Shown here: piece by piece, positions 12,971-32,041 of the stretch
Numbering within the stretch: the stretch's first letter is position 1
Layout of the letters: every line of letters starts with the position of its first letter
Assembly (NCBI GenBank): GCA_903846025.1
Contig: CAIMZP010000007.1
Span: 1 to 33,585, forward strand
Source of the DNA: an uncultured beta proteobacterium
GTDB taxonomy: Bacteria; Pseudomonadota; Gammaproteobacteria; Burkholderiales; Burkholderiaceae
Length of the DNA stretch: 33,585 nucleotides
Direction of reading: 5' to 3'
Made by a program: the position numbers and the translations under genes
The notes under the pieces: generated by a model
Told to the model about the DNA's origin: nothing
Seen by the model: the letters and a program-made list of their open reading frames with translations, nothing else
The model's database searches: none

Positions 12971-13885
12971 ATGCTTGAAATTAACCCCCCATCCCGACTA
13001 CTTGATTCCAAAACCCACCAGCGCCGACGTTTTTTAAGCCGAGGCCTTGGTTTAGGGGCGCTAGCCAGCAGTTTTAGCCTTTCTGGCTGCGGCCTAATGG
13101 GCACCCAAAAACCGGTTATAGGTCTAGCACTAGGGGCGGGTGCAGCGCGAGGATTTGCCCATATAGGGGTAATTAAGGCCTTGGAAGCTCAAGGTATTAG
13201 ACCTGATATCGTCGTTGGCAGTAGCGCTGGAAGTGTCATTGCCGCTTTGTTTGCCTCTGGCGCAACTGGAAATACCCTCAATCGCCTTGCCCTTAACTTA
13301 GATGAAGCCACAATTGCGGATTGGGGTTTGCCATTTGCCGGTCGCTTTGGTGGCCTCATTAAAGGTGACGCACTGCAGGCCATGATCAATCGAGAGGTGC
13401 AAAATAAAGCGATTGAGCAAATGCGCATTCCCTTGGGAATTGTGGCGACCGAACTGCAATCCGGTAAAGGCGTGCTGTTTCGGACTGGAAACACTGGCTT
13501 AGCCGTGAGAGCTTCTTGTAGTGTTCCAGGCGTTTTTCAGCCAGCAGTTATTGGCGGTAAAGAATATGTAGATGGTGGTTTAGTGGCGCCAGTGCCAGCG
13601 GCTTATGCAAGGCAAATGGGAGCGACCATCGTGATTGCAGTAAACATCTCTTCAGAGCCCATCCATCAAGATGCGAGTGGTACCTTTGGTGTCCTGCAAC
13701 AAACCATCTCCATCATGCAACAAAGCATTAATCAATATGAATTAAAGAGTGCTGACATTGTGATCACTCCTCACCTCATGCAAATGAGTAGTGGCGATTT
13801 CAAATCAAGAAATTCCGCAATTCTAGCGGGTGAGGTGGCAGCGCAAGAACAAATGGCATTAATTAAAGCAAGACTGCGAGCCTGA
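12971..13885 (+). CDS. Patatin-like phospholipase family protein (RssA-like) with a putative Tat/lipoprotein signal
   Basis: 304 aa; oxyanion GAGAARG, nucleophile elbow GSSAGS, catalytic Asp in VDGGL. N-terminus is HQRRRFLSRGLGLGALASSFSLSGC. Confidence 0.92.
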   Translation: MLEINPPSRLLDSKTHQRRRFLSRGLGLGALASSFSLSGCGLMGTQKPVIGLALGAGAARGFAHIGVIKALEAQGIRPDIVVGSSAGSVIAALFASGATGNTLNRLALNLDEATIADWGLPFAGRFGGLIKGDALQAMINREVQNKAIEQMRIPLGIVATELQSGKGVLFRTGNTGLAVRASCSVPGVFQPAVIGGKEYVDGGLVAPVPAAYARQMGATIVIAVNISSEPIHQDASGTFGVLQQTISIMQQSINQYELKSADIVITPHLMQMSSGDFKSRNSAILAGEVAAQEQMALIKARLRA

Positions 13886-13908: not shown

Positions 13909-14592
13909 TTAAAGGCTACGAGATTTACGCTTGATTTTATTAACCTCATCAAGCAAATCTTGATGTTCGGCATTGCCCAGGTTCTCGCTACCATCCAAAC
14001 GACGTGCCCCATCAAAACGCTTATCCCAGTAAACACTGGTCAGATCATCGACACGAACATTTGTCCCTTTGGATGGGGAGTGAATAAATTTATTGTCGCC
14101 AACATAAATGCCAACATGAGAAAAAGTTAGGCGCATCGTGTTAAAGAAAACCAGATCGCCAGGCCTCAACTCATCACGATTAACAGGTTTGCCTACGAGA
14201 CTCATTTGTGTTGACTTACGTGGCAACAAAAAACCCAGCTTATCTTTAAAGACGTATCCAACAAAGCTACTGCCATCCAAGCCAGACTGAGGCAACTCCG
14301 CATCCCAACGATAACGCACGCCAATAACTTCCATTGCGCGATTAATTAGTTCATCGGACCTTACGGTCACAGAATCAGCCAAGCGATCAGAAACCCGAGC
14401 AAAGTAAGACCTGCCTACCTGAAACATTGATTCCTTGGGCACCTCTACAGAAGGCTCTTTTACAAACTCAGCACTAGAATCAGCTGCAAAAGCAGGATTA
14501 ACACCAAGGAGGGTCGAAGCGAAGAACACTAAAGCCGCATGCATAGCAATGCGTTTGAGCAGGCGTCTGTGTGGATCTTTTTGAAAGGACAT
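13909..14592 (-). CDS. NlpC/P60-fold (C40-like) secreted protein lacking the canonical catalytic Cys
   Basis: 227 aa with a signal peptide. LRPGDLVFFNTMRLTFSHVGIYVGDNKFIHSPSKG is NlpC/P60-like; the expected DCSGF reads DGSSF. Confidence 0.9.
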   Translation of the reverse strand: MSFQKDPHRRLLKRIAMHAALVFFASTLLGVNPAFAADSSAEFVKEPSVEVPKESMFQVGRSYFARVSDRLADSVTVRSDELINRAMEVIGVRYRWDAELPQSGLDGSSFVGYVFKDKLGFLLPRKSTQMSLVGKPVNRDELRPGDLVFFNTMRLTFSHVGIYVGDNKFIHSPSKGTNVRVDDLTSVYWDKRFDGARRLDGSENLGNAEHQDLLDEVNKIKRKSRSL

Positions 14593-14720: not shown

Positions 14721-16391
14721 TTAAGTTAATTCTGCCGCCATAAAGAGCTCTTTTGTATAGCTTTGGCGGGGATGTTTAATAAGTGTTTCGGTATCCCCAA
14801 ACTCTACTACCCTGCCCTCCTTAAGCACTATGACTTCATGCGACATAGCCCGAATAACAGCCAAATCATGGCTAATCATTAAGTAGGCTAGGTTGTATTT
14901 CTTTTGCAATTCAGCAAGAAGGGCTAGCACTTGTTTTTGAATGGTGACGTCCAGTGCGGAAGTGGGTTCGTCCAAAACCAAAATCTGAGGCTTAAGAATC
15001 AGTGCACGTGCAATTGCAATACGCTGCCTCTGTCCTCCAGAAAACTCGTGTGGGTAACGCGTTAATGCCGAACGATCAATGCCGACCTCCCGTAAAATAT
15101 CTAAGACGCGTACCTCACGCTCTGCCATAGAAATTTTAGGGCAATGGATATCCAAACCTTCAGACACAATTTGCATCACAGTCATGCGAGGTGATAGCGA
15201 ACCAAAGGGGTCTTGGAAGATGACCTGCAAACTAGAGCGCATATTCCGACGTTCAATGGGTTTTAGTTTCTGCCAATCAGCTCCGAGCACATCAACGACG
15301 CCAGTGACTAGCGCAGCTGAGTCGCCTAGCAAACCAAGGACCGCCATCCCTAAGGTTGTTTTGCCGGATCCTGACTCACCAATCACACCAATCGTTTGCC
15401 CTTGTTTTAATGCAAAACTCACTTTACGTAAAACCTCATGACTGGATGATTTTTTGAACCAAGCTGTTCCCTCATTGCTTGGATAAGCAACCGATAAACT
15501 CTCAGCACTCAATAGCACAGGTGCCAAGGGCATTAATGGAGCTAGGTTTCGAACTGGTTCGCTATTAACTAGCGCTTGAGTGTAAGCATTCTCAGGGTGA
15601 TTAAAAATCTGTTGAGTAGCGCCACACTCCATAAGACTCCCTTGATTTAAAACTGCTACGCGATGAGCAAAATGCTTAACCAAATTTAGATCATGGGTAA
15701 TTAACAGGATCGCCATACCGCCATCATTCTTGGACTCTTCTTGAAGATCTTTTAATAACTCCAGAATCTGCAAACGCAAACTGACATCGAGTGCAGTCGT
15801 TGGTTCATCTGCAATCAGCAGACGTGGCTTACAAGCAAGCGCCATCGCAATCATGGCGCGCTGGCGTTGGCCGCCAGAAAGCTGATGCGGATAAGAATAA
15901 AACCGCTTATCTGCCTGGGGTATGCCCGTCTTCTTGAGTAATTCAATTGCGACAGAGACGCACTCTGCTTTGGAAATTAGTGGTTGATATACCCGCACTG
16001 CTTCCACAATTTGATTGCCTACCGTAAATAAGGGATTGAGAGCGGTCATGGGTTCCTGAAAGACCATGGCAATCTCACGCCCCCGAATCTGTCGAATTTC
16101 TTGAATAGGTAGGGCCAGCAAGTCGACTGAAACTTCTGGGGTTTTGGAATCTTTACCCCGCCACAGAATTCGACCAGATACTTTGGCGCTCTCTGGCTCA
16201 AGGCGCAAAGGCGAAAGCGCAGTCAACGTCTTGCCAGAGCCAGACTCACCAACCAGTGCTACACGTTCGCCTACGCCTATATCGAGATTCAAATGGTTGA
16301 CGGCAAATTTTTCACGCCGGCCAGAGCCAAATGAAATACAGAGATCATCAAATCGTAATAGGGGTTGAATCACTTTAGGAAATGAGATCAC
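14721..16391 (-). CDS. ABC transporter, two-domain ATP-binding protein (YejF/DppDF-like)
   Basis: 556 aa with two Walker A motifs (GESGSGKT twice), two [16 protein letters not shown] signatures and two Walker B segments. Confidence 0.95.
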
Positions 16392-17413
16392 GAGCGCCCG
16401 CCTTTCACAGTACTAGTTTTTCTAGTATCAAAAGCATCACGCAAAGCCTCACCCATAAAAGTCAATAAGAGCAAAGTAGTTACTAACACAACAAAAGTGG
16501 ACAAGGAAATCCACCATGCATCTAAATTACTTTTTCCTTGTGAGAGCAATTCACCCAAGCTGGGTGTGCCAGGGGGTACTCCAAGCCCTAAAAAATCCAG
16601 GCTAGTTAAAGATAAAATAGCGGCGCTCATACGAAAGGGTAAAAAAGTAATCACTGGAGTCAAGCTGTTCGGCAAAATATGGCGACGCATGATTTGGAAA
16701 TTGGTTAAACCAAGCGCTCTTGCAGCACGAACATATTCCAACGCACGATTGCGGAAAAATTCAGCGCGTACATAGTCTGAAAGACCCATCCAACCAAAGG
16801 CAGCTAGCAATATGATCAAGAGCCAAATGCTGGGATTAAAAATCGAGGCAAAAATAATTAGAAGGTAAAGCTCGGGCATGGCCGACCAAATCTCAATCAA
16901 GCGCTGAGATACCAAGTCAAACTTACCGCCAAAAAACCCCATCAATGAACCGGTAATGATCCCGACCCCAACACCTACAATCGTCAGCGCCAATCCAAAG
17001 AGAATGGATAAACGAAAACCATAAATCAAGCGCGCCAAAACATCGCGCCCTCGATCGTCAGTGCCCAGCCAATTCTCCCTAGATGGAGGTGCAGGATTGG
17101 GAACATTTGAAAAATAATTGAGCGTTTCAAAGCTATAGGTAATTGGCGGGTAAATCGCCCAATTACCTTCGCTAGTAATGTTGCGACGAATATCTGGATC
17201 CAAAAAATCAGTGGGGGTAGCAAAATCACCACCAAATACTCTCTCAGGTTGATTTTTTATAATTGGGAAATAAAAATGTCCTTGATATCGCACGATCAAA
17301 GGTTTGTCATTGGCGATCAACTCAGCACATAAGCTCAGTCCAAATAAGATCATGAAGAGCCATAAGCTGGCGTAACCTACGCGACTATTTTTAAAGCGCA
17401 ACCAACGACTCAT
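16388..17413 (-). CDS. Peptide ABC transporter permease (YejE-like)
   Basis: ORF 16388..17464; the start at 17413 (MSRWLRFKNSRVGY) is preferred because it gives a 4-bp ATGA overlap with the upstream permease. WLGTDDRGRDVLARLIYGFRLSILFG is a DppC/YejE-type motif. Confidence 0.93.
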   Translation of the reverse strand: MSRWLRFKNSRVGYASLWLFMILFGLSLCAELIANDKPLIVRYQGHFYFPIIKNQPERVFGGDFATPTDFLDPDIRRNITSEGNWAIYPPITYSFETLNYFSNVPNPAPPSRENWLGTDDRGRDVLARLIYGFRLSILFGLALTIVGVGVGIITGSLMGFFGGKFDLVSQRLIEIWSAMPELYLLIIFASIFNPSIWLLIILLAAFGWMGLSDYVRAEFFRNRALEYVRAARALGLTNFQIMRRHILPNSLTPVITFLPFRMSAAILSLTSLDFLGLGVPPGTPSLGELLSQGKSNLDAWWISLSTFVVLVTTLLLLTFMGEALRDAFDTRKTSTVKGGRS

Positions 17414-18486
17414 GAACCGCCCCCTGCACCGAACTGGATACGTGGGTCTACGTAAACATAGCAAAGATCAGAAATCAGCTTAGTAAACAAACCAATCAGG
17501 GTAAAAAGGTATAGGGTGCCAAAGACCACAGGATAGTCGCGACGCATAACAGATTCATAGGAAAGCAATCCCAGGCCATCTAATGAAAATAACGTCTCAA
17601 TTAATAGGGATCCAGTAAAAAAGGCCCCAATAAATGCCGCGGGAAAACCCGTAACCAAGGGCAACAAGGCATTACGAAATACATGCTTCCATAGCACCTG
17701 TTGTTCAGTAAGCCCCTTTGCTCTGGCTGTAAGAACATATTGTTTTCGGATTTCCTCTAAGAATGAGTTCTTCGTCAACATAGTCACCACAGCAAAACTA
17801 CCTAAAACCGATGCAGTGATAGGCAAAACCAAATGCCATAGGTAATCCATAACCTTGCCGATCCAACTGAGCTCATCCCAGTTATCTGAAGTTAGGCCAC
17901 GTAGAGGAAATAGCTGCAGAAAACTGCCGCCGCCAAAGATTACCAACAACAATACGCCCAAGACAAACCCTGGAATAGCGTAGCCTACCAAAATCATGCT
18001 ACTGGTGATGGCATCAAAGCGTGAACCATCGCGCACCGCCTTAGCTATTCCCAAGGGAATGGAAACCAAATAGGTAATAAAGAAAGTCCATAGACCAATA
18101 CTGATGGAAACAGGGAATTTAGAAACCACTAAATGCCAGACACTCTCGTGCTGGTAGTAGCTTTGCCCTAGATCAAATCTCGCAAAGCGCCCCAACATCA
18201 TAAAGTAGCGCTCCAAAGGAGGTTTATCAAAACCATAGAGCGCTTTGACCTCCTCCAAGCGCTCTGCATCAACCCCTTGGCGACCACGATAAGTTGCACC
18301 TGCGCCCGAGGACTCTGAGCCGCCTACCGCAGCATTGCCTTTGCCCTTCAATTCCAACACCATTTGCTCAACGGGGCCACCTGGAACAAACTGCACTACA
18401 GCAAAAGTTAAGGTTAAAACACCCAACAAAGTAGGGATCATTAAGAGCAATCGCTTAAAAATATATGCGCGCATTTGTCCTTGCAT
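17410..18486 (-). CDS. Peptide ABC transporter permease (YejB-like)
   Basis: 358 aa; MRAYIFKRLLLMIPTLLGVLTLTFAVVQFVPGGPVEQM..., QYVLTARAKGLTEQQVLWKHVFRNALLP EAA loop. Confidence 0.94.
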   Translation of the reverse strand: MQGQMRAYIFKRLLLMIPTLLGVLTLTFAVVQFVPGGPVEQMVLELKGKGNAAVGGSESSGAGATYRGRQGVDAERLEEVKALYGFDKPPLERYFMMLGRFARFDLGQSYYQHESVWHLVVSKFPVSISIGLWTFFITYLVSIPLGIAKAVRDGSRFDAITSSMILVGYAIPGFVLGVLLLVIFGGGSFLQLFPLRGLTSDNWDELSWIGKVMDYLWHLVLPITASVLGSFAVVTMLTKNSFLEEIRKQYVLTARAKGLTEQQVLWKHVFRNALLPLVTGFPAAFIGAFFTGSLLIETLFSLDGLGLLSYESVMRRDYPVVFGTLYLFTLIGLFTKLISDLCYVYVDPRIQFGAGGGS

Positions 18487-20354
18487 TATTTAGACTCTTC
18501 TTTCCACCAATTTTGCATAATCCATGGCTCGGCGGAGTAGTACAAAGGCGGCTCAGGATATCGCATCTCTTTACGATACGCTACTCGGTGTGTAGGGTTG
18601 TACCACTGCGGAATCACATAGTAACTATTCCACAATACTCGGTCCAGCGCTCTGGTAGCAGCACGCAATTCTTCACGGTTCTTCGCTTTTGTTACCTCAT
18701 TAATTAAAGCATCTACTACAGGCGACTGAATGCCAATGACATTATCAGAACCCTTCTCTTTGGCGGCCTGACTACCAAAGCGATCCCACAATTCATTGCC
18801 TGGATTTTGTGAGTCTGGAAAACGTATAGTAGTCATGTCAAAGTCATACTCATTCATTCGCTTCTGATGCAAGGCAAAGTCACTCGTTCGAATATCGACC
18901 TCAATACCCAACTTCTCGAGATTACGCATATAGGCTGATATCACTCTCAAAAAGAATGGCCCATCCTCCACCATTTCAAAACGAAATGGCTCACCTTGCA
19001 TATTGCGTAGTGCCCCATCGCGATATTGCCACCCTGCCTGAGCTAATAAGTCTCGAGCTTTCTTAAGATTTTTCCGCAAACTATTTGGGGGATTTGTCGA
19101 TGGGGCCGGAGACATAGGGTCAAAGACGGCATCTGGAACCCACTGAGGATATTGCGCTTTGAGTGGTTTAAGTAACTTCAACTCTGCGTCAGTTGGTTTG
19201 CGCGGGCCATCAAAGTTTGCACTAAGGTCGCTATTGGTGAAGTAACTATTAATCCGCCCATATTGATCGAAAAAAATTTGGCGATTGAGCCATTCAAAAT
19301 CCAATGCATAACCCAATGCCTCTCGAACGCGTGGATCGTGAAAAATTGGGCGACGCATATTCATGGCGAAACCCTGCATACCGGCGCCATTATGATTTAA
19401 AAAAGCCTTTTTGAGCAAAATACCATTATCAAATTTAGAGCCGACATATCCTTTAGCCCAAATCTTAGCGCGGTACTCGACTAAAGCATCGAACTCACCT
19501 GCTTTAAATGCTTCGAGACGAACGGCATCATCACTGTAGAGCTTGTACAAAATGCGATCAAAGTTATAAAAACCCACGCGCACATTTAACGGTTTACTTA
19601 GCTGATCAACCCAGTAATTAGGATTCTTTTTATAGACAATAGATTTGCCTGCTTTAAAAGACTCAATCAAATAAGGGCCACTACCAATAGGGGTTTCAAA
19701 AGCCAGATTTTCAAATGGAATCATCGAACCATTCGCAGCCTTGCCCCAGTTGCGGGAAAAAATAGGAAGTGTGCCCACCATGATGGGCAGCTCTGTGTTG
19801 CTATTCTTAAAATCAAAACGCACTTCACGCTCAGATAAAACCACGGCCTGCTTTACATCTGCAAAAGTTGTTTTATAGCGAGGGTGGGCTTTACCACTCA
19901 TTAAGACGTCAAAACTATATTTAACATCCGCAGCCAATACGGGAGTACCGTCAGAAAATTTGGCCTCAGGTCTAATCCTAAAAGTAGTGGACTTGTGGTC
20001 CGCGGCAACTTGAATATCTTCCGCAAGCAGGCCGTAAATGCTGGAAACCTCGTCAGCGCTCCCTTCAGCCAAGGATTCAAACATCAATTCAATTCCAGGC
20101 GCACTTACTCCACGCAGTGTAAAAGGATTGAATTTATCAAAACTGGTTCTTTGCCCTGGGTTGGGCAAAGTCAGCGTCCCACCCCTGGGGGCATTGGGAT
20201 TCACGTAGTCAAAGTAACTAAACCCGTCTGGGTATTTCGGTTTGCCATACTGGGCTATGCCCTGAGCAGCTTGCGTTTGATTGCCCAGCACCCCTGCAAT
20301 AAGAGTAAATAAGAAACTGAGGAAGATCTGACGGATGGGGGTGGGAGTAAACAT
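18486..20354 (-). CDS. Extracellular peptide-binding protein, SBP family 5 (YejA-like)
   Basis: The ORF is called from a TTG at 20378; ATG at 20354 (MFTPTPIRQIFLSFLFTLIAGVLG) gives a plausible signal peptide. Contains YDFDMTTIRFPDSQNPGNELWDRFGSQAAKEKGSDNVIGI. Confidence 0.93.
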   Translation of the reverse strand: MFTPTPIRQIFLSFLFTLIAGVLGNQTQAAQGIAQYGKPKYPDGFSYFDYVNPNAPRGGTLTLPNPGQRTSFDKFNPFTLRGVSAPGIELMFESLAEGSADEVSSIYGLLAEDIQVAADHKSTTFRIRPEAKFSDGTPVLAADVKYSFDVLMSGKAHPRYKTTFADVKQAVVLSEREVRFDFKNSNTELPIMVGTLPIFSRNWGKAANGSMIPFENLAFETPIGSGPYLIESFKAGKSIVYKKNPNYWVDQLSKPLNVRVGFYNFDRILYKLYSDDAVRLEAFKAGEFDALVEYRAKIWAKGYVGSKFDNGILLKKAFLNHNGAGMQGFAMNMRRPIFHDPRVREALGYALDFEWLNRQIFFDQYGRINSYFTNSDLSANFDGPRKPTDAELKLLKPLKAQYPQWVPDAVFDPMSPAPSTNPPNSLRKNLKKARDLLAQAGWQYRDGALRNMQGEPFRFEMVEDGPFFLRVISAYMRNLEKLGIEVDIRTSDFALHQKRMNEYDFDMTTIRFPDSQNPGNELWDRFGSQAAKEKGSDNVIGIQSPVVDALINEVTKAKNREELRAATRALDRVLWNSYYVIPQWYNPTHRVAYRKEMRYPEPPLYYSAEPWIMQNWWKEESK

Positions 20355-20404
20355 ATATGCAACAATTGTAGATAGCAAACTACATTTGAAGCAAAGGACA
20401 CATT

Positions 20405-26867: not shown

Positions 26868-27245
26868 TTATTTACAGGGATATTGCTGCGCAAGGAAGCG
26901 GATTAATGTTTTAGCTGCACGCTCTTGATTAAATTGTGGATGAATTTGGTTCCATAATAAAAACTGCTCGAGTATCGCTTCGCGAGTACCGCTCTGCTCT
27001 GGAAAGCAAATGCTGGGTTTTGTATTGAGATTTTTATTTGCTAAATACGATTGGTATACGCCTTCACCAAATCCAAAGCAAAAGTTTTGCGCATCAATAT
27101 CGTTAGTATTTTTACAAAGCGACACCAAAGCAGCTGTAGATGCATCGCTAGTGTTGAGCACTGTTTGTGCAAATGCACTTTGCAACGATGCAATCGCAAT
27201 AACAACAAGTAATATCACTCTCAAGGTATTTTTAAATATAGTCAT
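26868..27245 (-). CDS. Rap1a/Tai-like domain secreted protein
   Basis: 125 aa; signal peptide ending ...SAFA, four Cys in the spacing C..FCFGFGEGVYQSYL..ICFPE..LARFLAQQYPCK-like pattern typical of Rap1a/Tai proteins. Confidence 0.6.
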   Translation of the reverse strand: MTIFKNTLRVILLVVIAIASLQSAFAQTVLNTSDASTAALVSLCKNTNDIDAQNFCFGFGEGVYQSYLANKNLNTKPSICFPEQSGTREAILEQFLLWNQIHPQFNQERAAKTLIRFLAQQYPCK

Positions 27246-27267
27246 AGCTCTATTTTCTTAATATGAA

Positions 27268-28410
27268 TTAACGTCTAAATCCGCCCATACGACCACCGCC
27301 GAATCCTGCGCGACCGCCAAAACGATCTTGATTGGAATCAAAGCGCGCTTGATCTCTGAGGACATTTTCTTGCGCCGCTTCACGGTAGGCGCTGGGATTA
27401 GACCTATCCTCCTGAGCATCATTACGCGACTCTTGATTTAATCGATCCACCTGAGTGCGCTCTTGGGGCGTAGCATTTTTCTGAAAATCACTATCTGCAC
27501 GCTGGCTCGCAGATCTGGCCACCTGCTTATCTTGAGGGGTAGCGTTATTTTTCCAGTCATTCATGAGTCGCTGCTGGTTTTGAATGCTACTTGGCCCAAT
27601 GATGCCTCGCGTAGATCTGCCAGCCGAACCGGTATTGTTTACATTGATGGTCCCAGATGACCAGCTAGGAGTTGCCCAAAAAGCATCGCCTACCGCTAAG
27701 CCCATGCCAAAGGTCATGGCGCCCCAAGCTGGGTTATATGCAGGATATGGCGGATAGGCTGGGTAAGGCCAAGATCCATAAACTATCGTAGGGTTATATG
27801 CTGGCACATACACAATTTGGGTATTAGGAGGGTCGATGATGACATTGGAGTCAATCCCTGTGGTGACTGTCATTTGCGCATTCGATTTAAGGGTGCCTGC
27901 TTGCACAGCACGTTTACGAAGTGTCTGTACTGCCTTCATCGTATCAGCAGGCTGCAGCTTATAAGCATTACCTAAATTTTGCGTCCACTGTAATTGATTA
28001 CCCATCATCCCAAGAGATTGTGGAAAAGAAATGAGTGATTTAACGCTATCGTTCCAGGATTGCGCCTTTAAAGCATTTTGAAGTTGCGCTTCTTTTAAGT
28101 TAGCATTACTTCGCTGCCAGTTATATGCCTCAGCCACCTCTAAAGGATAGGTTGAGGCCAATAACATCAAAGAAAGCAAAGGGTCTGGATAGAGGGCAAT
28201 TGGAGAAACTAGAGACTCTAGTTGCGCTGTATTCATTAACAGTGGCGCAACCCCATAGCTTGAGTTTGAATCATTGCTTTGAGAAGATGTGTCGAACTGG
28301 TTGGAGGAATTTGAGCTTCCCGCGCAGCCATTAATGAAAGCAATCATCGATACCATCGCAATAAGACGTACTGAATTTTGCTTATAGTTAAATTGCTTTA
28401 CTGATTTCAT
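27268..28410 (-). CDS. DUF3300-containing lipoprotein with a Gly/Arg-rich C-terminus
   Basis: ATG at 28410 follows an SD-like TTGAGG (the ORF track starts at an upstream TTG). Lipobox-like INGC. DUF3300-like LESLVSPIALYPDPLLSLMLLASTYPLEVAEAYNW; tail RFGGRAGFGGGRMGGFRR. Confidence 0.88.
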   Translation of the reverse strand: MKSVKQFNYKQNSVRLIAMVSMIAFINGCAGSSNSSNQFDTSSQSNDSNSSYGVAPLLMNTAQLESLVSPIALYPDPLLSLMLLASTYPLEVAEAYNWQRSNANLKEAQLQNALKAQSWNDSVKSLISFPQSLGMMGNQLQWTQNLGNAYKLQPADTMKAVQTLRKRAVQAGTLKSNAQMTVTTGIDSNVIIDPPNTQIVYVPAYNPTIVYGSWPYPAYPPYPAYNPAWGAMTFGMGLAVGDAFWATPSWSSGTINVNNTGSAGRSTRGIIGPSSIQNQQRLMNDWKNNATPQDKQVARSASQRADSDFQKNATPQERTQVDRLNQESRNDAQEDRSNPSAYREAAQENVLRDQARFDSNQDRFGGRAGFGGGRMGGFRR

Positions 28411-28446
28411 AAAAAACCTCAATAGATTTTATTATCTCTTTTTTTG

Positions 28447-29067
28447 CTAACCCGCCCTAAACAAATATCCTGACTGGGCTTTCTCACGGTGCTGGCGATA
28501 CAAATAATAAAAACTTCCAAACAAAGCCCAAAAAGCTAAAAATGGATCTATTACATAGTCCCATAAATTACGAGATTCATGCCAATGGCCAGACCACGAA
28601 ATAACAGCTAAGGCCAAAATCCAAACCCCCTTAGTCCAACCAATAAGGCCACAAATTACTGCAAAAATTAACACCGCAATTAATAAACCGATCGAACCAT
28701 AACCCCAAGCATAGGGATCAATCATTCCAAGACCTAGCGCCATTGGATAAAACCCAATAGCTATCAAGCCAATGGTGAACTTAAACCCAATGGGCGTGGC
28801 TTTACCCTTGGGTATCAAGGAGCTCCATAGCAACAATAAGCTAACGATACTGAGGTCGCCCGTAATGCCTCGGACATACCCAGCTAACGGTAACTCCATA
28901 GACATACCTAGTGGCCAAAAAAAGATGTTCCCTAGCATTAGCAGTAAGAGTACACGAACACCAAATGGGATCTCGCCTGGAATCAGTTTTTGCATCAGCC
29001 AAATGCAGATTATGGAACAGGAAATCGACATCTCAATCAGAGCAATGCTTTGCATGTAGTTATTCAT
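28447..29067 (-). CDS. Polytopic membrane protein of unknown function
   Basis: 206 aa, many hydrophobic segments; 4-bp ATGA overlap with the upstream gene supports translation. Confidence 0.8.
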   Translation of the reverse strand: MNNYMQSIALIEMSISCSIICIWLMQKLIPGEIPFGVRVLLLLMLGNIFFWPLGMSMELPLAGYVRGITGDLSIVSLLLLWSSLIPKGKATPIGFKFTIGLIAIGFYPMALGLGMIDPYAWGYGSIGLLIAVLIFAVICGLIGWTKGVWILALAVISWSGHWHESRNLWDYVIDPFLAFWALFGSFYYLYRQHREKAQSGYLFRAG

Positions 29068-30323
29068 GGTTGCGTCTCTTTGGATATTATTTTCTCTGGG
29101 GTTTTTAGTTGACTATGTACATGCTCAACCCAATCGGACCCAAAATAGACATGACGAATTTTTTTACGATCCCAGGTATATACCAAATGTACATCGCTAC
29201 CATCTGCAGTAATTAAATAGGGATATGAAAATTCCCGACGCTGTTCGTTAGGTAAGGCCTCATCATCCTCGAGCACTTGGACCACCTGCCAATCATTCAT
29301 CTGACCCTCACTCATCATCATGACTAAGCGATAGCGTCCCGTTTCAATGTTATTAAGTACCATCAGCCGCAAACCATTATTAAGTGTCAAAGCAGCTATT
29401 GCAGAATTGGGGTTGGGTATCGGGATATCCCCCGCAACTTGCCAGCTTTTTCCAGCATTGCTGGTTTGACTTACTGGAATTTGCTTTACCTGAGCGCTAC
29501 CTCTTGTTTGCCTGAAGAATGCACTCGCTTGCTGTGCATCATCTACAAAAACAACTGGCTGAATAGCGTCACGTCCAGAACTCATACGACGTTTATCAAT
29601 AACTTGGTCAACGTCAATTCTCAAGAATTCACCGAATCGACCGATCCACTCGTGATAGGCTGGCAAGCCCAGAAGACCATCAGAAAATGGTAGTGCTGGT
29701 GACTTTACTAATGTACTGAGATTTATTAACGGAGATGTAATGAGCCGTTTTGGCTGTCCCCACGTTAAGCCCTCATCATCAGAGATGATGGTAGAGATTG
29801 AGCTGCCAGCCCAACCTCCAATCGAAACTGTTACAAAAAATAACTGTAGGCGGCCATCAGCCATTCTGGTGGGAACAGGATTTCCCAACTTAGCGATATA
29901 GCGTGATAGCCCAGTCTCTGCACTCACACGATCCATTACTACTGTAGGAGCACTCCATTTAGCCGTCTGAGGATCAAATACAGCGCTATTAATAACAACA
30001 TCTTTAGCGCCTTCCCTGCTTCCTGAAAACCAAAAAGCCCGAATCCCACCATCTTTTAAAACAATCAGAGAGGCCGCATGAACAGAAGCAGCCCCCGTAT
30101 CAGGCAACCAATTTAATTGTGCTTGAGTAGCGCTTGATTTAACGGATGATCCATTCTTATAGAGTGGGATAGTTCTGGTGATTTCTGGTGATAACGCTTC
30201 GATCGATGCGGTTTTGACGGCATCAGTCAATTTAAATGGCGCCCATGCAGGCTGACTATCAATATGCAGGTAGCCTAATACTGCGGAGAGCATTAAAAAA
30301 CAGAGCGCAATCACCCGAGTCAT
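29064..30323 (-). CDS. BNR/sialidase-like (BNR_2-type) secreted protein
   Basis: 419 aa; signal-like N-terminus, HAASLIVLKDGGIRAFWFSGSREGAKDV, Asp-boxes SDDEGLTWG and (degenerate) TSNAGKSWQ. Confidence 0.87.
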   Translation of the reverse strand: MTRVIALCFLMLSAVLGYLHIDSQPAWAPFKLTDAVKTASIEALSPEITRTIPLYKNGSSVKSSATQAQLNWLPDTGAASVHAASLIVLKDGGIRAFWFSGSREGAKDVVINSAVFDPQTAKWSAPTVVMDRVSAETGLSRYIAKLGNPVPTRMADGRLQLFFVTVSIGGWAGSSISTIISDDEGLTWGQPKRLITSPLINLSTLVKSPALPFSDGLLGLPAYHEWIGRFGEFLRIDVDQVIDKRRMSSGRDAIQPVVFVDDAQQASAFFRQTRGSAQVKQIPVSQTSNAGKSWQVAGDIPIPNPNSAIAALTLNNGLRLMVLNNIETGRYRLVMMMSEGQMNDWQVVQVLEDDEALPNEQRREFSYPYLITADGSDVHLVYTWDRKKIRHVYFGSDWVEHVHSQLKTPEKIISKETQP

Positions 30324-32041
30324 CGACAGGCATCCTTTTCTGTAGAAAGAGGTGATATGGTGACGGGGGTAGAAATCAAGTATTCATTTACAAACAAATA
30401 TTTACCGATTTCACCCATCAATATTGCCTTAATTTCTGCATTAGACTGACGGGCTCGCATCTCCATACGCTGCCCCAGAATTTTGCAGGATTCACAAAGT
30501 TCAGGTTGAGTCCCCATAGGCATTTGCACTGCGACCAAAGGATAGGCACTAGTAAGGCCTTCGATATTGCCAGCGTCTTTTGCTAAATAGCCATGCAATT
30601 GCGCGCCAGGTAAAAGTAAGCGGTACTCTTCATCCTTGGCGCGATAGTCACATGGAATCCAAACCTCTTGCCCAACAACACTCTGAATAGATGTGGCGTT
30701 ATAACGCCCTAAACTACCCTCCAATGGAGAAAGGCTGCTGGTCAAAGCGCAATAACAGATAAAGCATGCAGATAAAGCAATCGACTTGGACTTATTCTTG
30801 CTAAACAAACCCACCAAGACAAGAACAATCGCAGCACTTATCAATATCCAATGCCAGTGAGGGTATGCCCATACCCCCAACTCTCCCGAAAAATGTGTTG
30901 CCTGTAAATTAGCGCCCACCCAGAGCAAGCTTACTAAAAAAATTAGTTGCACTACTAAGGCAACGCGAAAGCCCCATAAAGGTAAGCGATCCCAATGTAA
31001 GGCGATGAGTGCAGCAAAGGCTGGCATTACTGGCAGAAGATAACGTCCAGAGCGCTGGCTGGGAAAACTAAAAATAATAAAGAAGGCTGCTATCCATAGA
31101 AGTAATAACATTTCCTCAATAGAAAGGAAACGACGCTGACGCCAACATTGAATTAATGTTGAAATCAAAACAAACAAAAATAAACCAGCATTGGCGAGAG
31201 TTGTGAGCACTAGCATCCAAATACTGTCACCACCTCGCACTAAATCCAAAAGGTAACTGTTACTACGCGCATCAAACTTACCCGCATTTTCACCAAGTAC
31301 AAACTCCCTCCAAACTGCCTCCGGAAAAGGATCTAAGACAAACCAGAGGGCAAAGATAATCAAAGCCAAGGCAACGATCAAAAAGACTTTGTAGGCATCT
31401 TGAATTATTAACTTAGATGCGCTCCACTCACGCCAGCGCCAATAGTACAAAATTAAAGCAACTGAAGCAGGCACGATATAAGCAAATGATTTTGCTAGGA
31501 GCGCCACTCCAAAGCAGATTCCTGCAATTACTGGGAAAAGGAACCTAGAATCGAAAGCGGCTTTGCCCCAATACAACAAAGCCATAAAGGGTAAGCTTAA
31601 CCAGAAGACCTCTGGGGAATCAGTGAGGAATGGGCGACCATAACGATAGGTGGCAAAAAAGGAGAGCCAAACTAACCCCGCAAGTAATCCAGTCTGCGTT
31701 CTGCCACTAAATCGACGGACTGCTAAAAATAAGAAAAATGCCGTGAGTCCGGTATAAAAAACACTAGGCCAGCGCAGCGCTGCAAGCGTCCAGTCACTAC
31801 CCCAGTGCGTGCTTGCAATTCCCTCCCAAAATACCAGCGGTGGTTTGGTATTTTTGATGCCCACCATCTCCGATTGCAGCGGCAGCCAAGAGCCCGTACC
31901 TGCAGTCATTCGGACTATGTGCATATAAGGATACTCATCGCCGTTTTTGGGGGCAAATCGACTATCTAGCCCATACAGGTAAGTAAATACGCCCAGAAGC
32001 AGGATCAGGATTGCGCTACGGAATGTGAAAGTACCTCGCAT
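30320..32041 (-). CDS. Glycosyltransferase family 39 / ArnT-like integral membrane protein
   Basis: 573 aa; first periplasmic loop FAPKNGDEYPYMHIVRMTAGTGSWLPLQ...NTKPPLVFWEGIAS; about 10 hydrophobic segments; RSGRYLLPVMPAFAALIALHW. Confidence 0.9.
   Translation of the reverse strand: MRGTFTFRSAILILLLGVFTYLYGLDSRFAPKNGDEYPYMHIVRMTAGTGSWLPLQSEMVGIKNTKPPLVFWEGIASTHWGSDWTLAALRWPSVFYTGLTAFFLFLAVRRFSGRTQTGLLAGLVWLSFFATYRYGRPFLTDSPEVFWLSLPFMALLYWGKAAFDSRFLFPVIAGICFGVALLAKSFAYIVPASVALILYYWRWREWSASKLIIQDAYKVFLIVALALIIFALWFVLDPFPEAVWREFVLGENAGKFDARSNSYLLDLVRGGDSIWMLVLTTLANAGLFLFVLISTLIQCWRQRRFLSIEEMLLLLWIAAFFIIFSFPSQRSGRYLLPVMPAFAALIALHWDRLPLWGFRVALVVQLIFLVSLLWVGANLQATHFSGELGVWAYPHWHWILISAAIVLVLVGLFSKNKSKSIALSACFICYCALTSSLSPLEGSLGRYNATSIQSVVGQEVWIPCDYRAKDEEYRLLLPGAQLHGYLAKDAGNIEGLTSAYPLVAVQMPMGTQPELCESCKILGQRMEMRARQSNAEIKAILMGEIGKYLFVNEYLISTPVTISPLSTEKDACR

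Follow-up and report, generated by a model that had tools for sequence, protein, structure and literature searches.

A MepS-related NlpC/P60 protein lacking the catalytic cysteine in most of the genus Polynucleobacter

The C40 locus and its product

The window, which is the whole stretch of 33,585 nucleotides analyzed here, comes from the metagenome-assembled genome of an uncultured beta proteobacterium that belongs to Polynucleobacter (G000). Its gene for an NlpC/P60 (C40) protein lies between the yejABEF genes and a convergent patatin-like gene, and the features needed below are as follows.

12971..13885, plus strand: patatin-like phospholipase (RssA-like), convergent with the C40 gene (NCBIfam PRK10279)
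13909..14592, minus strand: Cys-less NlpC/P60 (C40) protein of the MepS lineage (227-aa ORF, Pfam, NCBIfam)
13912..13974, minus strand: C-terminal helix, residues 207-227 (alignment and model)
13996..14361, minus strand: NlpC/P60 domain, residues 78-199 (domain model and PDB fold matches)
14080..14082, minus strand: His171, position of the third catalytic residue (invariant in aligned homologues)
14116..14118, minus strand: His159, position of the first catalytic His (invariant in all aligned homologues)
14266..14268, minus strand: Ser109, codon AGC, where DCSG has an invariant Gly (orthologue motifs and column comparison)
14272..14274, minus strand: Gly107, codon GGC, in place of the catalytic Cys, motif DGSSF (sequence and MepS alignment)
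14299..14304, minus strand: Asp97-Ala98 replacing the canonical Gly-Gly of the pre-nucleophile loop (alignment columns)
14362..14436, minus strand: linker, residues 53-77, KESMFQ.G.SYFARVSDRLADSV, conserved within the DGSSF group (column counts)
14482..14592, minus strand: putative signal peptide, residues 1 to about 37, ...NPAFA-AD (by eye)
14721..20378, minus strand: yejF, yejE, yejB and yejA, oligopeptide ABC transporter, directly upstream of the C40 gene (NCBIfam PRK15134 YejF, PRK15021, PRK15133 YejB)

The C40 reading frame starts with ATG, and its product of 227 aa matched Pfam PF00877 (NLPC_P60) over the full profile (1-105 of 105) with 91.6 bits against a cut-off of 23. MepS (Spr), the murein DD-endopeptidase / LD-carboxypeptidase of Escherichia coli, was its best sequence match in both NCBIfam (PRK10838.1) and the PDB (2k1g, 7v6s, 8xud/8xup), with an NCBIfam score of 95.4 bits, below the equivalog cut-off of 186. 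In the alignment with E. coli MepS, Gly107 stands opposite the Cys of GIDCSGF, His159 opposite the His of RHVGIY and His171 opposite the His of FVHA. The catalytic Cys that an active C40 peptidase carries in D-C-S-G is therefore replaced by Gly107, whereas the catalytic His and a third polar residue (His/Asn/Gln) are present. A first-pass annotation of the window, made from the sequence alone, had described an intact frame with a signal peptide in which DCSGF had become DGSSF, and had read GAT GGC AGT AGC TTT on the minus strand; the frame and these codons are confirmed (TTG GAT GGC AGT AGC TTT at 14280-14263), as is the replacement of the Cys. The signal peptide reads by eye as the signal-peptidase-I type, and no lipobox, such as the lipoprotein MepS has, was visible in it by eye. 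Scanning the gene for promoters and terminators gave matches no more numerous than shuffled sequences did.

The AlphaFold model of the full-length protein was poor (pLDDT 67), with a helix at residues 7-28 in the signal region and another predicted at low confidence at 58-89, in the linker. The model of the NlpC/P60 domain alone reached a pLDDT of 80.7 and a pTM of 0.80, and its sole low-confidence stretch was residues 95-104, the loop of the changed glycines. The best Foldseek matches of the domain model were Acd24020 of C. difficile and E. coli MepS (TM 0.81-0.88), the top PDB folds being 7cfl and MepS 8xup/7v6s, with a TM of 0.81-0.86 to MepS. The C-terminal helix is common to most Polynucleobacter orthologues, including those of a clade that retains the Cys, and is missing from most outgroups and from the clade with the motif FDAS(A/T)F.

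In every Polynucleobacter locus that was long enough, yejA-yejB-yejE-yejF and the C40 gene follow one another on one strand, and in most of them a convergent patatin-like gene, scpB and rluB lie 3' of the C40 gene. The gene order is identical in Cys-bearing (L193-L198) and Cys-less loci. Among the other families sampled, five have the C40 gene convergent with a patatin gene (L178, L188, L189, L190, L192), and this was the only part of the arrangement they kept; a link of the C40 homologues to yej was not seen in any of the other families sampled. The E. coli order is mepS-pdeN-yejABEF: there mepS precedes yejA, and pdeN separates the two, whereas the C40 gene lies downstream of yejF. The yejABEF neighborhood expected of a MepS orthologue is thus found; given the score under the equivalog cut-off, we regard the protein as a MepS relative without filing it as MepS. 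YejABEF of Agrobacterium imports muropeptides with a different binding protein, YepA, which is confined to Alphaproteobacteria (PMC9790009); by analogy, and as a suggestion only, the Polynucleobacter C40 locus might be tied to peptidoglycan recycling through yejABEF. At its N terminus, the patatin-like protein of the window has a twin-arginine-like stretch and then LSGC, and it may be a Tat-exported lipoprotein. In three genomes (G050, G037 and G068; L204-L206) the patatin gene is gone from the locus and the C40 gene is retained.

Distribution of the nucleophile motif and history of the loss

The motif was read directly in the orthologues of 70 Polynucleobacter species (L003-L072), of which 61 lack the Cys, as DGSSF (44), DGSGF (5), DASGF (4), DASSF (3), DASAF (4; one LDASAF and three FDASAF) or DASTF (1), and nine keep DCSGF. 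The 80 loci from named Polynucleobacter records were likewise all Cys-less. When 186 genomes of the genus were scanned for exact matches to a degenerate pattern for GLDCSGFV with AGY serine codons, the Cys form was matched in 16, including all nine with DCSGF loci. In the other families of the order, DCSG was present in 24 of 25 homologues, the 25th being unmatched by the search expression. None of the 110 distinct orthologues of the Cys-less clade, aligned from independent genomes, has a Cys at the nucleophile position, which rules out sequencing error, and the frame is open in all orthologues that were read. In the FDAS(A/T)F clade (L069-L072, L199-L202), with genomes of 2.3-2.9 Mb, the Gly-Gly loop aligns with a gap of one residue. 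In one complete, single-contig genome of the genus (G142), neither the C40 gene nor yejB nor the patatin gene is present, which looks like loss of the entire cluster; the C40 gene is therefore dispensable there. Where other genomes gave no clear orthologue, the assemblies are fragmented, and in two of them the yejB contig stops near yejE/yejF.

In a species tree of IF-2 and TypA (30 genomes, 1,502 columns), the Cys-bearing species are sister to all Cys-less ones (92/92), and the motif changes once. The C40 gene tree, computed without the four changed columns, also gives one change, with the key fork weakly supported (86/52). This weak support would fit a different history of the same pseudoenzyme, in which the FDAS(A/T)F clade and the main clade lost the Cys separately, in at least two events, and came to share Ala by convergence; the two-protein data likewise leave a grouping of FDAS(A/T)F with the Cys clade standing (AU p=0.146). 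The larger set of IF-2, TypA, RpoB and RpoC (22 genomes, 4,303 columns), in which just two FDAS genomes had all four proteins, rejected that grouping (AU p=0.001), and we consider repeated loss quite unlikely. That the Cys-bearing copies were acquired by horizontal transfer or are hidden paralogues was ruled out by the shared neighborhood and by a species tree that the motifs follow.

Because the Cys-bearing clade is sister to all Cys-less species and the alternative grouping is rejected, the most likely history is a single loss of the Cys in the ancestor of all Polynucleobacter but one early clade, with a change from Cys to Ala and then to Gly. Parsimony on the species tree places Ala as the first Cys-less state and has Gly arise once, on the branch of DGSGF and DGSSF. 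The step from TGY to GCN takes two nucleotide substitutions, and therefore an intermediate, which is unseen, probably existed. The first-pass annotation had raised fixation of Gly among orthologues, which was not found: Ala appears to be the oldest Cys-less form, Gly came later, and the early clade retains Cys.

Selection on the altered domain

The Cys-less domain is under strong purifying selection. Pairwise NG86 estimates over the domain, for which pairs are non-independent and dS is high, gave a dN/dS of 0.012 for the DGSSF sequences (400 pairs, dS 0.1-1.2); the DGSGF group (10 pairs) stood at 0.009 and the Cys clade (7 pairs) at 0.039, and the linker ahead of the domain was faster (0.094). 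This agrees with the selected role that had been proposed for the protein at first pass. A decaying gene, or an error in the reads, is an explanation to which we give negligible weight, as every orthologue read is open, the domain dN/dS is about 0.012 and 61 of the 70 species lack the Cys; isolated decay is ruled out by the orthologues together with the dN/dS. Neither isolated decay nor a Cys in all orthologues, which the earlier annotation had named as outcomes contrary to its reading, was observed. The ratio of C40 to housekeeping distances was alike within groups (1.65 in the Gly group and 1.68 in the Cys clade) and rose to 2.1-2.5 when the FDAS clade was compared with the others, suggesting that the FDAS branch changed faster early on.

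Among the 118 positions of the domain, 34 are invariant in 30 canonical sequences, and 29 of these 34 are still invariant in the 110 distinct Cys-less sequences, including Tyr94, Asp106, Ser108, His159 and His171. The fold and the other cleft residues are thus preserved. The five exceptions are Gly97, Gly98, Cys107 and Gly109, all around the nucleophile, and A86S in one sequence. Gly97-Gly98, invariant in the 30 canonical homologues, is substituted in most Cys-less ones and wholly or partly retained in the DASGF and DASSF groups; the loop changes therefore apparently came after the loss of the Cys.

Proposed role of the Cys-less protein

The Cys is gone, yet the other active-site residues are almost unchanged in more than 100 species, and the Polynucleobacter protein is therefore probably a non-cutting, wall-binding protein. 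We infer that it does not hydrolyze peptidoglycan by the C40 mechanism; its old cleft would bind stem peptides or a partner, and its role would be regulatory. The earlier reading of the protein as a pseudoenzyme is well supported; the roles it suggested, a scaffold that binds peptidoglycan or regulates amidases, are guesses, and none of the present results pointed to amidase regulation.

Considering the sequence, the structure models and the analogies described below, we propose the following model, to which we give a probability of about 60%. The nucleophile Cys would have become Ala in the common ancestor of all Polynucleobacter minus one early clade, giving a natural counterpart of MepS(C68A), and Ala would have become Gly on the branch leading to the window. 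Gly97-Gly98 and Gly109 were altered too, apparently freed of constraint, and the remaining cleft stayed fixed. The exported, presumably periplasmic protein would dock stem peptides, or partners of MepS-type enzymes, without cleavage, and may, by binding peptidoglycan as a competitor or adaptor, restrain or position the active endopeptidases of its own cell. Candidates for these are present in the window genome: a second C40 protein with a lipobox-like signal, whose canonical DCSGL motif (L001) also answers the question, put at first pass, of whether a Cys paralogue exists in the same genome, and two M23 proteins (L276 among them), NlpD-like and MepM-like by sequence reading, of which the MepM-like one would be the second target.

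Both catalytic His residues are invariant, which goes beyond what simple binding strictly requires and speaks against the binding model; the catalytic His of RipD was lost. The absence of the gene from G142 also weighs against the model. Taken alone, invariance of the two His residues is only modest evidence, since the Cys-less sequences share as many as 52 invariant positions among the 118 of the domain. The same invariance would be expected if the protein were still catalytic, with His159 and His171, together with Tyr94, Asp106 and Ser108, holding a metal or activating water or a serine, and all cleft residues invariant in canonical enzymes, bar the Cys and the three glycines, are indeed invariant in the 110 Cys-less sequences. 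No new replacement nucleophile is common to all groups, position 109 being Ser, Gly, Ala or Thr, and Ser108 is just as invariant in canonical enzymes; there is thus only a slim chance that this explanation holds. If true, a cysteine peptidase would have been converted genus-wide to another wall enzyme with a Cys-bearing sister clade surviving, a rare replacement of mechanism within one family.

The known systems nearest to the protein are MepS and its mutant. The Polynucleobacter protein shares the Tyr, Asp, Ser, His and His positions of MepS and a gene position near yejABEF, and it differs in having no nucleophile Cys, in its altered Gly-Gly loop and Gly109, and in having no lipobox. MepS(C68A) is catalytically inactive (PMC7049810, PMC5549755) and has the same change from Cys to Ala at the nucleophile as the DASGF orthologues; it is man-made and otherwise unaltered, whereas the natural form is long-evolved and carries Gly in the window. 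Overproduced MepS(C68A) rescued growth on mecillinam only in the presence of native MepS, which its authors read as titration of Prc (PMC5549755). By analogy, the Polynucleobacter protein might be a decoy, an inactive copy that engages an adaptor or protease and thereby lets more of the active paralogue accumulate, and a paralogue of the active type does exist in the genome. We regard this as unlikely, since in the Polynucleobacter genomes sampled (G000, G020, G032) the only carboxy-terminal protease found is CtpA-sized, at 480 aa; a long Prc, 758 aa in the outgroup G079, was not found in these three, and an invariant cleft is not in itself demanded by decoying.

For the preferred reading, that of a non-cutting binding protein, the closest precedent is the mycobacterial RipD (Rv1566c; PDB 4jxb, 4lj1; NF033743), a non-catalytic, peptidoglycan-binding NlpC/P60 protein (PMC12067865). 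RipD is likewise secreted, with its nucleophile replaced (Ala83) and active C40 paralogues in the genome. It has also lost the catalytic His (Ala83-Ser132-Glu144; PMC12067865), whereas His159 is kept in the Polynucleobacter protein, and it bears C-terminal pentapeptide repeats. The match of our protein to NF033743 was 35.1 bits, below the cut-off of 215, and the two Cys-less proteins are of independent origin. A literature search on Polynucleobacter with NlpC gave nothing, and the other searches gave either RipD and MepS papers or no result. The degenerate LytM factors EnvC and NlpD are also regulatory proteins with a peptidoglycan hydrolase fold and no catalytic residues; they differ in being amidase activators with the M23 metallopeptidase fold, and no sign of such an activating role was seen for the Polynucleobacter protein.

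Non-catalytic NlpC/P60 proteins are thus already known, and what is new here is the stepwise, genus-wide history with the histidines retained. Pseudoenzymes of cell-wall hydrolases are mostly known from single proteins. Here, one genus and one locus offer an ordered series of a Cys-bearing sister clade, an Ala stage and a Gly stage, in which just the glycines flanking the nucleophile change progressively. This raises the question of what non-cutting job a MepS-type protein can have, which work in E. coli has addressed through the C68A mutant; the same change has been tried by nature in well over 100 freshwater species, many of them cultured. For most copies in Polynucleobacter, annotation as a "C40 peptidase" misleads.

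Three minor observations concern the window and its genome. The G000 assembly gave no match to rpoB or rpoC despite a stated completeness of 91.8%, which is likely a gap in the metagenome assembly. A small Rap1a-immunity-like protein (PF18602) is encoded directly downstream of a DUF3300 protein (26868-28422, minus strand), and a BNR-repeat (sialidase-like) protein adjoins a PMT-type glycosyltransferase (29064-32041, minus strand).
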